From: Actinomycetota bacterium
GTDB lineage: Bacteria; Actinomycetota; Thermoleophilia; Gaiellales; Gaiellaceae
Length of the DNA: 37,056 nt
Assembly: GCA_005885125.1 (NCBI GenBank)
Contig: VAXU01000160.1
Span: 1-37,056 of the forward strand
Direction: 5' to 3'
In this document: in pieces, positions 544 through 18,227 of the stretch
Layout: every line of letters starts with the position of its first letter
How positions within the stretch are numbered: the first letter of the stretch is position 1
The notes under the pieces: model-generated
Seen by the model: only the letters and a program-made list of their open reading frames with translations
Databases searched by the model: none
Told to the model about the DNA's origin: nothing
Position numbers and translations under genes: made by a program

Positions 544-801
544 CTACTCCGACGCTTCGGTGACTTCGACGGAGCGGCGCTCGCCGCTCTGCCGGAACGC
601 GACCGTGCCGGGGCGCGTCGCGAAGATCGTGTCGTCACGGCCTATGCCCGTGCCCGGGCCAGGGCGGAACTTCGTCCCGCGCTGCCGCACGAGGATCATC
701 CCCGCCTTGACGTCCTGACCGGAGAAGATCTTCACGCCGAGCATCTTCGGGTTCGAGTCGCGGCCGTTGCGCGACGAACCGAGTCCCTTCTTATGGGCCA
801 T
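544..801 (-). CDS. rpmA: 50S ribosomal protein L27
   Basis: Ribosomal protein L27 of the large subunit, whose N-terminal tail reaches the peptidyl-transferase centre. The 85-residue product starts [19 protein letters not shown] and contains the family signature [15 protein letters not shown]. Its length is normal, and the N-terminus is the standard MAHKKG form without a Firmicutes-type cleaved leader. The start ATG at 801-799 shares its A with the TAA stop of rplU (TAATG), so translation is probably coupled to L21. The reading frame is open well upstream, but those residues are an out-of-phase reading of the rplU tail. The Obg start follows 6 nt after its stop. Confidence 0.98.
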
Positions 802-1391
802 TAGGTTCCCTTCTCCTGCTTCGCTTCGATCGCGGACTCGAGCGCGGCGATCGCGCCCTTGCGCTTCGCGTGCTCGTTTTCGTACTCGAGCGCAGCTTCG
901 AGCTGCTCGAGCTTCCACCGCTTCGCCTTGTCGCCGATCTCGACCACAGTGAAGTCCGCGTAGCCGCGCGGGGGCTGTGCAACGACTGCTTCCTTCGGCT
1001 CCGCGACTGGTTCCTTCGGCTTCGGGGCCGGCGCCTCCTGCTTCGGTTCCGGTGCGGCCGCCGCCGCACGCTTGGCCGCGCCGATCGACTCGATCTCGAT
1101 CTGCGACAGTGCCGCACGGAAGCCGGTCTGGCGGCGATACCCGCTCTTCGGCCGCCGCTTGCCGATCCGCACCTTCTCGCCGCGCACGTGACCGACGACG
1201 CGGGCCGTGACGGTGGCACTCGGCGCCAACTGGCCCGTCCCCTCCCCGCCGACAAAGAGGACACCGGGGTGGAACGTCTTGCCCTCGTCCGTCCCAAGCC
1301 GGTCCACGAGCAGGCGCTCGCCCTCGCGGACGACGTACTGCTTGCCGCCGAGAGCGATGATCGCGTAGCTCTGAGTCTTCGACGTGGCCAT
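801..1391 (-). CDS. rplU: 50S ribosomal protein L21 with long C-terminal extension
   Basis: Ribosomal protein L21, which binds 23S rRNA in the large subunit. Residues 8-104 are the standard domain ([17 protein letters not shown] near the start; [15 protein letters not shown] at 78-92). Bacterial L21 normally ends near residue 103, but this protein has 196 residues. Residues 105-142 form an Ala/Pro/Lys/Glu linker with repeated PKP, EPK and PKE units. Residues 143-196 are a charged, probably helical or coiled-coil segment ([20 protein letters not shown]). The whole ORF is open and ends in a TAA that overlaps the rpmA ATG, so the extension is not a frameshift artefact. The ATG at 1391 lies one base from a large inverted-repeat element (1393-1551), whose near arm holds the only weak ribosome-binding sequence (GGAA). 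Confidence 0.95.
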
Positions 1392-1392
1392 A

Positions 1393-1551
1393 GGTCAGGT
1401 TCCGTGCAGATCGTGCGCTTCGGCCGCGAAACGCCCGTCTCGCAAGGACGCAGGGAGCGCTCGTAGCTGAAAGCTACGGGCGCGACTGAGGACGCCGTCG
1501 AGACGGAGCGTTGCAGCGCCCCGGAGCGTGCGAGATGTGCGGAATCTGACC
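1393..1551 (-). repeat. Structured element, family A copy 1 (long inverted repeat with conserved core)
   Basis: A 159-bp near-palindromic element lies directly before the rplU start codon. The outer arms (1393-1441 and 1499-1551) pair almost throughout, from GGTCAG/CTGACC at the ends to CCGTCTCG/CGAGACGG at the inner edge. Inside is a 56-bp core: GCAAGGACGCAGGGAGCGC (1442-1460), a hairpin with 12 pairs and a GAA loop (1457-1468 with 1472-1483), and GCGACTGAGGACGCCG to 1497. The core flanks and the base of the hairpin recur identically at 15704-15757, where the hairpin stem and the arms have different sequences but still pair. That pattern suggests a structured RNA, sense or antisense to rplU. 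Strand is given as that of the downstream gene; the transcribed strand is unknown. Confidence 0.75.
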
Positions 1552-5214: not shown

Positions 5215-5415
5215 GTGGCCGGACAGCGCGAAGCCCATGAGCTGCTCTTGATCGAGGAGGCAGACGCCTGGTTCGAGTACCTGGAGGCGACCCGCGGGCA
5301 GTCGGCGCTCCGCTACAGGGAAGTCGAGCCCTGGGCCTGGGCCCGGCTGACCCAGCGCCTCCGAGCCATCAAGACCCGACGCGCCAAGCTGCGCCCCGCT
5401 GCGAAGGCCGCCTAA
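5215..5415 (+). CDS. Small conserved-looking protein of 66 aa, function unknown
   Basis: I do not recognise a named family. The frame runs from a GTG at 5215 to a TAA at 5415 and is preceded by a good GGAGGT at 5203-5208 with 6 nt spacing, which selects this start over the longer open frame. The product is hydrophilic and probably all helical. Its first half is acidic and aromatic (HELLLIEEADAWFEYLEATRG) and its tail is very basic (RLTQRLRAIKTRRAKLRPAAKAA). The charge split and size suit a small nucleic-acid- or protein-binding factor, but that is only inference. It stands alone on the plus strand between the rne and rodA blocks, followed by the stem-loop at 5465-5530. Confidence 0.7.
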   Translation: MAGQREAHELLLIEEADAWFEYLEATRGQSALRYREVEPWAWARLTQRLRAIKTRRAKLRPAAKAA

Positions 5416-5464
5416 GTGCCCCTCCCGGTGATGCATGTCGGCTCCTGGCCCGCTATCACGCGGC

Positions 5465-5530
5465 GCCAGAGTCCACCCTCGTCCTTACCAAGGCTTCTAG
5501 CCTTGGCTGCGGACGAGTGCGGCCCCTGGC
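5465..5530 (+). other. Multi-helix stem-loop downstream of the 66-aa gene
   Basis: A nested structure: GCCAG/CTGGC (5465-5469 with 5526-5530), then CTCGTCC/GGACGAG (5478-5484 with 5511-5517), then CCAAGGC/GCCTTGG (5488-5494 with 5500-5506) closing a TTCTA loop, with asymmetric internal loops between the helices. It sits between two convergent genes. It may be a bidirectional terminator without a U-tract or a small structured RNA. Confidence 0.5.
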
Positions 5531-5612
5531 TTGGTGCTAGCGACCCAGAAGCTCAACAGCATCACCGGAAGAGGCACTAGTTGGCGAGTTGGGTCGTCGA
5601 GGCGCCGCTGCC

Positions 5613-14633: not shown

Positions 14634-15668
14634 CTAGTCGGCGCGGCTGAGATCGGCAAGGAGATAGAGAGAGCCGGTGACGAGGACCGGCCCCGCGCCG
14701 CGGGCCCGGCGAAGAGCGCTGTGAGGATCGTCGTCGGATTCGACACGGTCGAAGTACGGTTCGGCGCGGCGCGCCAGTTCCTTTCCGTCGAGGGCGCGGG
14801 CGTTGGAGGAACGCGTCGCGATCAGAGTACGCCCGGCGCGTCCAAGCCGCTCGAGCATCGCCTCGGCGTCCTTGTCCGAGAGGATCGAGGCGACGACGGT
14901 CCAGTCCCGTTTTGGGAGTCGCTCGAGCAGCCAGTCGAGGCCGGCCGGATTGTGGGCGCCGTCCCAGAGCTCGTCCGGGCCGCGCCACTCGAGCCGGCCG
15001 GGCAGCGAGATCTCGGCCTCCCGCCCGAGCGGTCTGTCGAGGAACGCCGCCGCCGCCTCGCGCCCGCCGCCGGTCCGGACCTCGTTGTCGGGAAGAAGCT
15101 CGGCCCATTCGGGCTCGCCGAGGACGGCGATCGCACCGGGCTTCACCACCGCGAGCTTCTCGCGCGCAATCGCCTCGCGCGTTTCCCCGAGGACGTCGGT
15201 GTGCTCGAGCGCGACGTTCGTGAGGAGAACGACACGCGCATCGATCAGGTTCGTCGCGTCGAGCCTCCCGCCGAGACCGGCCTCGACGACGGCGACGTCG
15301 ACACTCTGCTCGCGGAACTCGGTCAACGCGGCGGCGGTGAGCACCTCGAACTGGGTCGCGCCTTCGGCGTGTGGCCGCACCCGTTCGACGGCGCGCTCGA
15401 AGTCGACGTCGTTTCCGTCGACCTGGATCCGCTCGCTCCAGCCGCTGACGTGCGGCGACGTGTACACGCCGGCGCGCAAGCCTTCGGCGCGGAGCAGCGC
15501 AGCGATGGTGCGCGCCGCCGTCGACTTGCCGTTCGTGCCGACAACGTGGATGGACGGATATGCGCGTTGCGGATCGCCGAGATCGCGGAGCAGCGCGCGC
15601 ATCCGGTCGAGCCCGAACTCTTCGGGCCAGGGCGACAGCGCTTCGACCCAAGCGGTTTGGCCGGTCAC
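14634..15668 (-). CDS. folC: Folylpolyglutamate synthase/dihydrofolate synthase
   Basis: Mur-ligase-like enzyme that adds glutamate to dihydropteroate or folates using ATP. It has 344 residues from the chosen GTG. The P-loop is VVGTNGKST (42-50), followed by SPHVSGWSERI, VEAGLGGRLDATN and DGAHNPAG. It is shorter than the usual 400-430 residues, with a compact C-terminal domain ending LVTGSLYLLADLSRAD. The start at GTG 15668 fits family N-termini (AWVEALSPWPEEFGLDRM). The frame is open to a TTG at 15707, but those codons lie inside the family A core. The start codon and first six codons form part of an arm of the inverted repeat 15650-15814, so initiation could be masked by RNA structure. Confidence 0.94.
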   Translation of the reverse strand: MTGQTAWVEALSPWPEEFGLDRMRALLRDLGDPQRAYPSIHVVGTNGKSTAARTIAALLRAEGLRAGVYTSPHVSGWSERIQVDGNDVDFERAVERVRPHAEGATQFEVLTAAALTEFREQSVDVAVVEAGLGGRLDATNLIDARVVLLTNVALEHTDVLGETREAIAREKLAVVKPGAIAVLGEPEWAELLPDNEVRTGGGREAAAAFLDRPLGREAEISLPGRLEWRGPDELWDGAHNPAGLDWLLERLPKRDWTVVASILSDKDAEAMLERLGRAGRTLIATRSSNARALDGKELARRAEPYFDRVESDDDPHSALRRARGAGPVLVTGSLYLLADLSRAD

Positions 15669-15814
15669 ACTGGTGGATGCATGGCGCGCGAGCACCAAGC
15701 GATGCAAGGACGCAGGGAGCGCCCAGGCTGGCCGCCTGGGCGCGACTGAGGACGCCGCAGCGCGCCGCGTGATCGCGCGTCAGGCGCCGCCAAGTGTGGC
15801 CGGTCAGACCGCTT
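15650..15814 (-). repeat. Structured element, family A copy 2, between valS and folC
   Basis: A 165-bp imperfect inverted repeat. Outer arms 15650-15703 and 15758-15814 pair from AAGCGGT/ACCGCTT inward. The core 15704-15757 repeats copy 1: GCAAGGACGCAGGGAGCGC, then a hairpin with 10 pairs and a TGGCC loop (15719-15728 with 15734-15743), then GGGCGCGACTGAGGACGCCG. The upper hairpin and both arms differ from copy 1 but keep pairing. The outer right arm contains the valS stop, and the left arm contains the folC GTG. Confidence 0.75.
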
Positions 15815-18227
15815 AACTGCTGAGAGCGTCGAGCTCACGGCGATAGCGCTCCAGCTTTTCGCGCTCGGCCTCGACGACGTGCGCCGGCGCGTTCTGCACG
15901 AAGCGCTCGTTCGCGAGCATGCCTTCGGCGCGGGCGATCTCCTTCCGGAGCCGCTCGATCTCCGCCGCGGCATTCCCGTTGGCCTTCTGGCGTTCCGGCT
16001 TCACGACGGCATCGAAGATCCGCGTCTCTTCCGGACCGAGCGGGACGCGCACGCCGCTCCGTCTGAAGATCTCGGCCGCCTCTTGCACTCGATCGAGCGC
16101 GTTCAGAGCCGACCCGAAAGCGGGGTCCGGAGCCGGCCACGGGGCCACGATCAGCAGGCTCTCTCGCGCCGGGAGGTGCGACCAGACCTCTTCGGTCACG
16201 TGCGGCATCACCGGGTGGAGAAGCGCGAGGAGCCGCGCCAGCGCAGCGAGCGCGGTCGACTGAGCGTGCCCATCGCCGTCGTACAGACGCGGCTTGATCG
16301 CCTCCGCGTACCAGTCACAGAAGTCGTCGAACGTCAGGTGATAGAGAACGTTCGCGGCGTCCGCAAAGTCGAAGGAGGCGAGCGCGGACTCGAGCTCCGC
16401 GCGTGCGTTCTCGATCCGCGCGAGGATCCATGTCTCCTCGAGCGCTTCGGGCCTGGCATCGGGAGTCGCGCCCGCGGTGTTCGAAAGGATCAGGCGGGAC
16501 ACGTTCCAGAGCTTGTTCGTGAGCTTGCGCCCCTCCTCGATGGGGCCGACCGAGAAACGCACGTCCTGCGTGGACGACATCTTCAGCAGTCCGTACCGCG
16601 TCGCGTCTGCGCCGTACTCGTCCACGCTTTCGAGCGGGTCGATTCCCGTGCCGAGACTCTTCGACATGCGCCGTCCGTCCGGCGCGTTGATCGTGGAGTG
16701 GATGTTGACCGTGTGGAACGGGATGTCGCGCATCAGCTCGAGCCCCGCCATGATCATCCGCGCCTCCCACAGGAAGATGATTCCGCGGTCCGTCGAGCTG
16801 ACGTCGTTCGGGTACCACGCGTGTAGTTCCGGCGTGTCCTCGGGCCAGCCGAGGGTCGCGAACGGCCAGAGCGCCGACGAGAACCACGTGTCGAGCACGT
16901 CCTCGTCCTGTCGCAGCTCGCGCGAGCCGCATTCGCGGCATGCCTCGGGCTCGGACTCGGCAACGGTCGTGTGCCCGTCCGGGCAATACCAGGCCGGGAT
17001 CTGGTGTCCCCACCACAGCTGGCGTGAGATGCACCAGGGTCGGATCGCCTCCATCCAGTCCAGGTAGACCTTGGTGTAGCGCTCCGGGCGGAAACGGACG
17101 CGCCCGTCGCGAACCGCGGCAATCGCCGGAGCTGCGAGCTCGGTCATGTCGCACCACCACTGCAGCGAGACGAGCGGCTCGATCCGGTCGCCGCTGCGGT
17201 CGCAGTGCGCGACCGCGTGCCGGTAAGGCTCCTTGGACTCCAGCAGCCCTTCGCTCTCGAGCCGCGCGACGATGCGCTCGTTCGCCTCCGCCTGCGTGAG
17301 GCCGGCGAACTCGCCCGCCTCGTCGTTCATCCGCGCGTCGAGGCCGATCACGGTCAGCTCGGGCAGGCCGTGGTCGCGACCGATCTCCCAGTCCATCGGA
17401 TCGTGGCCGGGCGTGATCTTGACCGCGCCGGTCCCGAACTCGGGATCGACTCGTTCGTCCTCGATGATCGGGAGCCTCCGCCCGACGATCGGCAGCAGCG
17501 CCTCCTTGCCGACCAGGTGGCGATAGCGCTCGTCACCGGGATGCACGGCAACCGCGACGTCGGCGAGCATCGTCGGCGGCCGCACGGTCGCGATCGTGAT
17601 GTGACCCGGGCCGTCGGCGAGTGGGTAGCGGACGGTGTACAGGGTGTCGGTCGTCTCCTCGTGGTTGACCTCGAGGTCGGAGATCGCACTCGCGCAGCCC
17701 GGGCACCAGTTGACGATGCGGTTGGCTCGGAAGAGGTAGCCACGCTCGTTGAGGTGGACGAACCAGCGCAGGACCGCACGCACATAGGGCTCGTCCATTG
17801 TCATCCGCTCGCGCCGGTAGTCGAGCGACGCGCCGAGACGTCGCAGCTGGCCCATGATCACGCCGCCGTACTTCTCGAGCCAGGCCCACGTCCGCTCGAG
17901 GAACTGCTCGCGGCCGAGGTCGTGCCGCGTCAGGCCTTCCTTGGCCAGCTCTTTCTCGACCACGTTCTGCGTCGCGATGCCCGCATGGTCGTAGCCGGGC
18001 TGCCACACGGCGCTGAACCCGCGCATGCGGTGCCAGCGGATGAGCAGGTCCTGGATCGACGCGTTCAGCGCGTGACCCATGTGCAGGTCGCCCGTGACGT
18101 TCGGAGGCGGGATGCAGATCACGAACGGCTCGCGGTCCGGGTCGGGGTCGGCCGCATACAGGCCTTCCTCCTCCCACGTCCGCTGCCAACGCTGCTCGAC
18201 GCCCTGCGGTTTGTAGAGCGAATCCAT
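15813..18227 (-). CDS. valS: Valyl-tRNA synthetase
   Basis: Class Ia synthetase that charges tRNA-Val. It has 804 residues. The HIGH-type motif is HMGH (49-52) in PPPNVTGDLHMGHALN. The CP1 editing domain follows with TVRPPTMLADVAVAVHP, where many ValRS have TRPETML. Later come the WCISRQLWWGHQIPAW stretch, the class motif RMSKS (520-524), the anticodon-binding helical domain and the C-terminal coiled-coil arm (IERLRKEIARAEGMLANERF). The length is slightly below the usual 850-950. The ATG at 18227 is supported by MDSLYKPQGVEQRWQRTWEE. There are 79 nt between it and the GMC gene, with no clear promoter. valS-folC adjacency is typical. Confidence 0.98.
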   Translation of the reverse strand: MDSLYKPQGVEQRWQRTWEEEGLYAADPDPDREPFVICIPPPNVTGDLHMGHALNASIQDLLIRWHRMRGFSAVWQPGYDHAGIATQNVVEKELAKEGLTRHDLGREQFLERTWAWLEKYGGVIMGQLRRLGASLDYRRERMTMDEPYVRAVLRWFVHLNERGYLFRANRIVNWCPGCASAISDLEVNHEETTDTLYTVRYPLADGPGHITIATVRPPTMLADVAVAVHPGDERYRHLVGKEALLPIVGRRLPIIEDERVDPEFGTGAVKITPGHDPMDWEIGRDHGLPELTVIGLDARMNDEAGEFAGLTQAEANERIVARLESEGLLESKEPYRHAVAHCDRSGDRIEPLVSLQWWCDMTELAAPAIAAVRDGRVRFRPERYTKVYLDWMEAIRPWCISRQLWWGHQIPAWYCPDGHTTVAESEPEACRECGSRELRQDEDVLDTWFSSALWPFATLGWPEDTPELHAWYPNDVSSTDRGIIFLWEARMIMAGLELMRDIPFHTVNIHSTINAPDGRRMSKSLGTGIDPLESVDEYGADATRYGLLKMSSTQDVRFSVGPIEEGRKLTNKLWNVSRLILSNTAGATPDARPEALEETWILARIENARAELESALASFDFADAANVLYHLTFDDFCDWYAEAIKPRLYDGDGHAQSTALAALARLLALLHPVMPHVTEEVWSHLPARESLLIVAPWPAPDPAFGSALNALDRVQEAAEIFRRSGVRVPLGPEETRIFDAVVKPERQKANGNAAAEIERLRKEIARAEGMLANERFVQNAPAHVVEAEREKLERYRRELDALSS

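Follow-up and report, generated by a model that had tools for sequence, protein, structure and literature searches.

Rod-shaped palindromic repeats with interchangeable cores at gene junctions of Gaiellaceae: mobile elements with a covarying, strand-specific fold

Short palindromic repeats are commonly regarded as selfish debris. The REPINs of the REP-RAYT systems of Pseudomonas and others are extragenic hairpins of constrained length that carry compensatory changes (PMC3116915). For bacterial miniature inverted-repeat transposable elements (MITEs), TA ends, stem-loop transcripts and, in the case of ERIC, effects on mRNA that depend on orientation have been reviewed (PMC2229807). Systematic surveys of stem-loop repeats exist as well (PMC2267715). 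Here we analysed a stretch of 37,056 nucleotides (the window), which is part of a contig (VAXU01000160.1) from a 2.83-Mb, 77%-complete assembly of a Gaiellaceae bacterium. It contains three copies of a palindromic element of about 164 nt, termed rod element in the following. The family to which they belong is mobile, its predicted fold covaries with a marked preference for one strand, and resident copies are conserved in place.

With REPINs the rod elements share many extragenic hairpins per genome, a constrained length, compensatory changes, an apparently non-autonomous nature and long vertical persistence. Yet REPINs have conserved 16-mer ends, a variable middle and a length of ~70-100 nt, whereas the longer rod elements have a conserved middle, variable arms and no linked RAYT. 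ERIC/RU-1, Correia (NEMIS) and other bacterial MITEs are, like the rod elements, intergenic, apparently non-autonomous stem-loops of 100-200 bp; they have TA ends, and TA is common in the flanks of rod elements. In contrast to these repeats, rod elements are GC-rich, carry several arm classes on shared cores, covary strand-specifically across genera, supply a stop codon and a Shine-Dalgarno sequence from their ends and are conserved in place above fourfold sites. The surveyed stem-loop families (PMC2267715) are also intergenic repeats with a common predicted fold; modular cores and the occurrence in many genera and more than one class set the rod elements apart, in a comparison by text search only that gave no matching family. 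Invariant internal loops within covarying helices are reminiscent of Rfam-type structured RNAs, but mobility with copy numbers in the tens to hundreds and the lack of a common gene context are not. An Rfam search of the window returned only a tRNA above the gathering score and no family that matched the copies, in agreement with the first-pass annotation, a model's reading of the sequence, which had recognised no known RNA family. In a literature text search the core sequence gave one unrelated match, and no report of such repeats in Gaiella was found. The rod elements have the general features of MITE-like palindromic repeats together with those of a structured nucleic acid that covaries; they lack two features that define REPIN/RAYT systems and the one that is key to retroelements.

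The first-pass annotation had described two hairpins with an identical core and unrelated, self-complementary arms, each directly upstream of a minus-strand gene. Both copies are present where they were reported; their exact ends were set by a covariance model (Table 1). The 19-nt core string shared by them occurs exactly twice in the window (chance expectation 0.02, allowing up to three mismatches), and the second shared string is found in both copies as well. The predicted folds agree with an upper hairpin of 12 and 10 pairs and with self-complementary outer arms, which measure ~55 nt, and the adjoining minus-strand genes are indeed rplU (L21p) and a Mur-ligase-type folC. A third copy had been overlooked. 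It lies on the minus strand, with the stop codon of a small plus-strand open reading frame on one side and an ftsW/rodA-type gene on the other, and carries core II (CCGCACTCG..CGAGGGTGGAC), which is frequent in the genus. The plus strand of copy 1 alone has a predicted folding energy of -109.5 kcal/mol; with flanks the values are -126.7 kcal/mol for the plus and -92.4 kcal/mol for the minus strand. Copy 3 reaches -124.3 kcal/mol on its own plus strand vs -97.1 kcal/mol on the opposite one.

Elements usually are 162-166 nt long, the core being flanked by ~57 nt on either side, and 142 of 146 copies are intergenic. The invariant columns are in the core and the arms are variable. Several arm classes were distinguished, A (AGTG..), B (GGAGGG..), C (GAGCTC..) and D (GGTCACC..); a mid module, CGCGAGCACCAAGC / CGCGTGATCGCG, is characteristic of class A. 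At least three different cores are mounted in the rod. Copies with the third core (GGCGCTCGCGCC..) are 182 nt long (L263:1232-1413 and L264:1269-1450), and one orthologous site holds core I in one species and core III in the other. Cores and arms are exchangeable modules. Judged from its sequence, core I consists of two purine-rich strands which may stack as tandem G.A pairs around CAG/CUG. A standard K-turn was dropped after inspection by hand because the bulge is one nucleotide, not three.

The prediction of an invariant core within covarying helices was borne out. Among 66 pairs in 33 gap-free copies, 88% of the cells are standard pairs and 55 pairs have two-sided changes. Compensatory cells numbered 404, compared with 117 ± 10 in shuffles and 79-130 in slid structures. 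The mismatches are strongly biased to one strand. In an arm alignment which weighted all mismatches equally, with the plus strand defined by the core, 710 G:U stood against 111 A:C (~6:1); GU exceeded AC in 132 elements and the reverse was seen in one. Copies with core II, for which that core sets the orientation, show the same bias, as do a 4.6-Mb relative and each of the classes A to D, and it is independent of the orientation of the flanking genes. The fold kept is therefore that of the plus strand, the strand which the first-pass annotation had noted as purine-rich. A mutation bias due to transcription or replication strand was ruled out as its source since the bias is equal in all gene orientations and is also present in a genome in which the elements have no orientation bias. 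Because GU greatly exceeds AC in all subclasses, whatever the gene orientation, the plus strand has been shaped by selection as a single strand somewhere in the life of the element. The folding-strand bias alone cannot separate RNA from single-stranded DNA.

The genome of the window has 20 copies by the exact core pattern and ~31 by the covariance model. The exact core is carried by 62 out of 129 genomes at the level of the order and by 71 out of 299 Thermoleophilia genomes; there was none in the phylum sample outside this class, and the reversed core pattern, used as a control, had 0 matches. The covariance model, which is less strict than the exact core, reached genomes beyond the class as well and gave full-length matches in further families within the phylum (f13, f49). 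In the 4.6-Mb relative it matched at least 136 times, at least ~130 of them over the full length. The family is spread genome-wide and class-wide. Four f13 copies (L346, L347, L348, L350), which are from another class of the phylum, all read GGCCGC or GGCGGC in the 5' core strand where others have GGACGC (C in place of A), and GAGAACGC instead of GAGGACGC in the 3' core strand (A in place of G). This is a coupled change inside an otherwise invariant core.

The elements are mobile. The valS-folC junction is without an element in eight same-genus genomes, and many more empty sites were seen at other junctions in relatives. Tandem and nested copies are present in the element-richest genome (L302, L308, L313, L330; G683); there, one element sits inside a core strand of another, and the composite is itself repeated. 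In the genus of the window, internal-deletion derivatives of 76 and 95 nt (L207, G000:C14:2403-2478; L236:1291-1385) have retained matched outer arms and lost the core and mid module. The flanks are TA-rich, and at stop-codon junctions TA and the first G of the element rebuild TAG. Phage, plasmid and viral contigs contained zero copies. The initial view of a structured RNA as opposed to a simple DNA repeat holds for the covarying fold; its denial of a simple DNA repeat is correct only in part, as the element is dispersed and competent to insert, with empty sites at orthologous positions and with copies that are nested or in tandem. Retrotransposition was rejected because no reverse transcriptase (RVT_1) was found in nine own-family carriers, including G000; among the carriers checked, just G286 and G194/G683 had it, the latter two handles apparently denoting a single genome. 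G683 (JAOSKU010000001.1) has thirteen reverse-transcriptase (PF00078) matches, several of them repeated, and none were seen in Gaiellaceae-type carriers. An element bound to one replication strand was also rejected, as there is no strand bias in the 4.6-Mb genome (64:57).

Copies that stay in place are conserved. Nine junctions in same-genus species pairs hold an element at the same position. Pooled over these pairs, identity is 0.88 in the element vs 0.53 at fourfold sites of adjacent genes. Seven of the nine pairs are reciprocal best matches, with outer arms mostly 0.85-0.96 identical (in one of them the arm score is distorted by an offset); the other two could be independent insertions. Two-sided changes that kept pairing numbered 20 vs 3.7 shuffled within the genus and 43 vs 10 between genera. 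Since identity is far above that of fourfold sites and two-sided changes are kept, resident copies are not decaying debris. The summed one-sided transitions in the nine orthologue pairs, 47 pair-keeping vs 21 giving A:C, favour kept pairing; the count is inflated by inherited GU sites and is therefore no more than suggestive.

Position and orientation are class-dependent. Relative to the plus strand of the element, the genes on both sides of class A copies are minus-strand in 63 cases and plus-strand in 5; for class D the numbers are 10 and 0. The elements of the 4.6-Mb genome show no such orientation bias. The plus strand of both classes is thus antisense to the surrounding operon. The left end of class A is 2 bp from a start codon in 40 of 66 cases, and a Shine-Dalgarno-like motif is present at the left end in 40/52 class A and 8/8 class D elements; the right end never mirrors it. 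Flanking pairs in the genome of the window include S17/L14/L24, L22/S3, pdhB/pdhC-type, ATP synthase, pyrB/pyrC-type, ftsW/PBP, valS/folC and rplU. A recurrent specific neighbour gene was sought and discarded, as 265 of 338 neighbour-protein clusters are singletons. At L178:457-1153 (G000:C44), within the ribosomal protein operon, rplN is flanked by two elements in the order S17 / element / L14 / element / L24; in G026 one of the two junctions is likewise occupied.

How can mobility, a selected single strand and residence at operon junctions be reconciled? With moderate confidence we favour a non-autonomous, mobile palindromic element of MITE/REPIN-like type whose plus strand folds as a single strand and which has been co-opted in classes A and D as an intercistronic element. 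The core-defined plus strand would fold into a rod of almost fixed length; copies insert at TA-rich gene junctions. The folded plus strand would be the form recognised during movement, most likely as single-stranded DNA because a reverse transcriptase is absent from the nine own-family carriers. A class A or D copy that lands at a stop/start junction of an operon could rebuild the stop codon of the gene upstream and provide the gene downstream with its Shine-Dalgarno sequence, probably the reason for its retention. In the mRNA the foot of the rod would bring stop codon, Shine-Dalgarno sequence and start codon together, and the copy may work in cis, setting or coupling translation of the downstream gene. 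Several observations do not fit easily. The mRNA of classes A and D carries the minus strand, the weaker folder, so a role in the message alone does not explain the plus-strand bias. Classes B and C have neither an orientation bias nor a Shine-Dalgarno arrangement. Target duplications, by inspection, are short and class-dependent (3 bp in class C, imperfect 5-8 bp in class D). No mobilising enzyme was found linked to the elements, and no autonomous copy with the same ends was present in the DNA analysed here; complete genomes were not searched for one.

Possibly, the plus strand is transcribed into a free structured RNA whose purine-rich GA core has a protein or a second RNA as binding partner, and mobility explains no more than the copy number. 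The GU bias of RNA-like size, the invariant internal loops in covarying helices, the paired core change in the four copies from another class and the conservation of same-site copies would all be expected of it. Yet the foot of the rod is where the conserved unit starts, with unrelated coding sequence to the left of it, and a plus-strand promoter common to the copies is thus not visible; moreover, classes A and D are antisense inside operons and two or three different cores are used in the same rod. On balance a free RNA appears possible, though doubtful. If the element were a plain terminal-inverted-repeat MITE that depends on one or several DDE transposases, with arms matched by hairpin-templated repair and not by selection on the fold, this would account for the TA flanks with short class-dependent duplications, the insertion-sequence-like ends of classes B and C and the non-autonomous, intergenic copies with empty sites. 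This reading is unlikely. Templated repair predicts neither the excess of GU over AC on one strand nor invariant asymmetric cores, wobble is missing from only ~5 outer class A pairs, too short for a typical terminal repeat, and the conservation of resident copies and the lack of an autonomous partner in the DNA analysed here are also at odds with it. Very improbable, finally, is a REPIN-type system in which a Y1/HUH (RAYT-like) transposase moves single-strand hairpins, in spite of the REPIN-like extragenic hairpins (PMC3116915) and of Y1_Tnp genes, which 82 out of 129 genomes from the order carry and of which the genome of the window has seven. The element was at none of 26 Y1 loci examined, and the carriers G071 (91% complete, 13 exact-core copies) and G102 (95% complete, 10 exact-core copies) are without a Y1 match. 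In addition, the conserved part is central, not terminal, and a replication-strand bias is absent.

The rod elements unite in one family mobility, strand-specific covariation across genera and resident conservation well above synonymous sites, with conserved residents in operons for ribosomal proteins, ATP synthase and central metabolism. As such, the mobile repeat looks like a functional component of the genome. For annotation, the elements appear to equip essential genes of a common, mostly uncultured soil lineage with stop codons and ribosome-binding sites. Domestication of a mobile hairpin becomes directly testable here, and the covariance model allows it to be tracked. Tentatively, and on rather slender odds, one may go further and consider a mobile modular nucleic-acid device in more than one Actinomycetota class: interchangeable GA-rich cores, each mounted in a 164-nt rod, would have spread by transposition and then become fixed where essential genes adjoin in operons, and might regulate there, as RNA or DNA, via a dedicated protein reader.

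Table 1. Rod-element copies and adjoining genes in the window.
Feature	Position	Strand	Remarks
Copy 1	1393..1551	+	159-nt rod hairpin, class D arms, core I; reverse-complement end abuts rplU start codon
Copy 1 core I, 5' strand	1442..1460	+	GCAAGGACGCAGGGAGCGC
Copy 1 core I, 3' strand	1478..1497	+	GGGCGCGACTGAGGACGCCG
Copy 2	15651..15813	+	163-nt rod in the valS-folC junction; core I, arms and mid module similar to class A
Copy 2 core I, 5' strand	15704..15722	+	
Copy 2 core I, 3' strand	15738..15757	+	
Copy 3	5415..5578	-	164-nt rod; outer and mid modules of class A, core II replacing core I
rplU (ribosomal protein L21)	801..1391	-	downstream of copy 1 in operon direction
folC-type Mur ligase gene	14634..15668	-	downstream of copy 2; exact start uncertain
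valS	15813..18227	-	upstream of copy 2; TAA stop codon takes last base of copy 2

Upstream of copy 1 the window also has a direct duplication of ~250 bp (1725-1975 and 2035-2284; 97-98% identical, ~309 bp apart), which lies within and beside a beta-lactamase-family gene.
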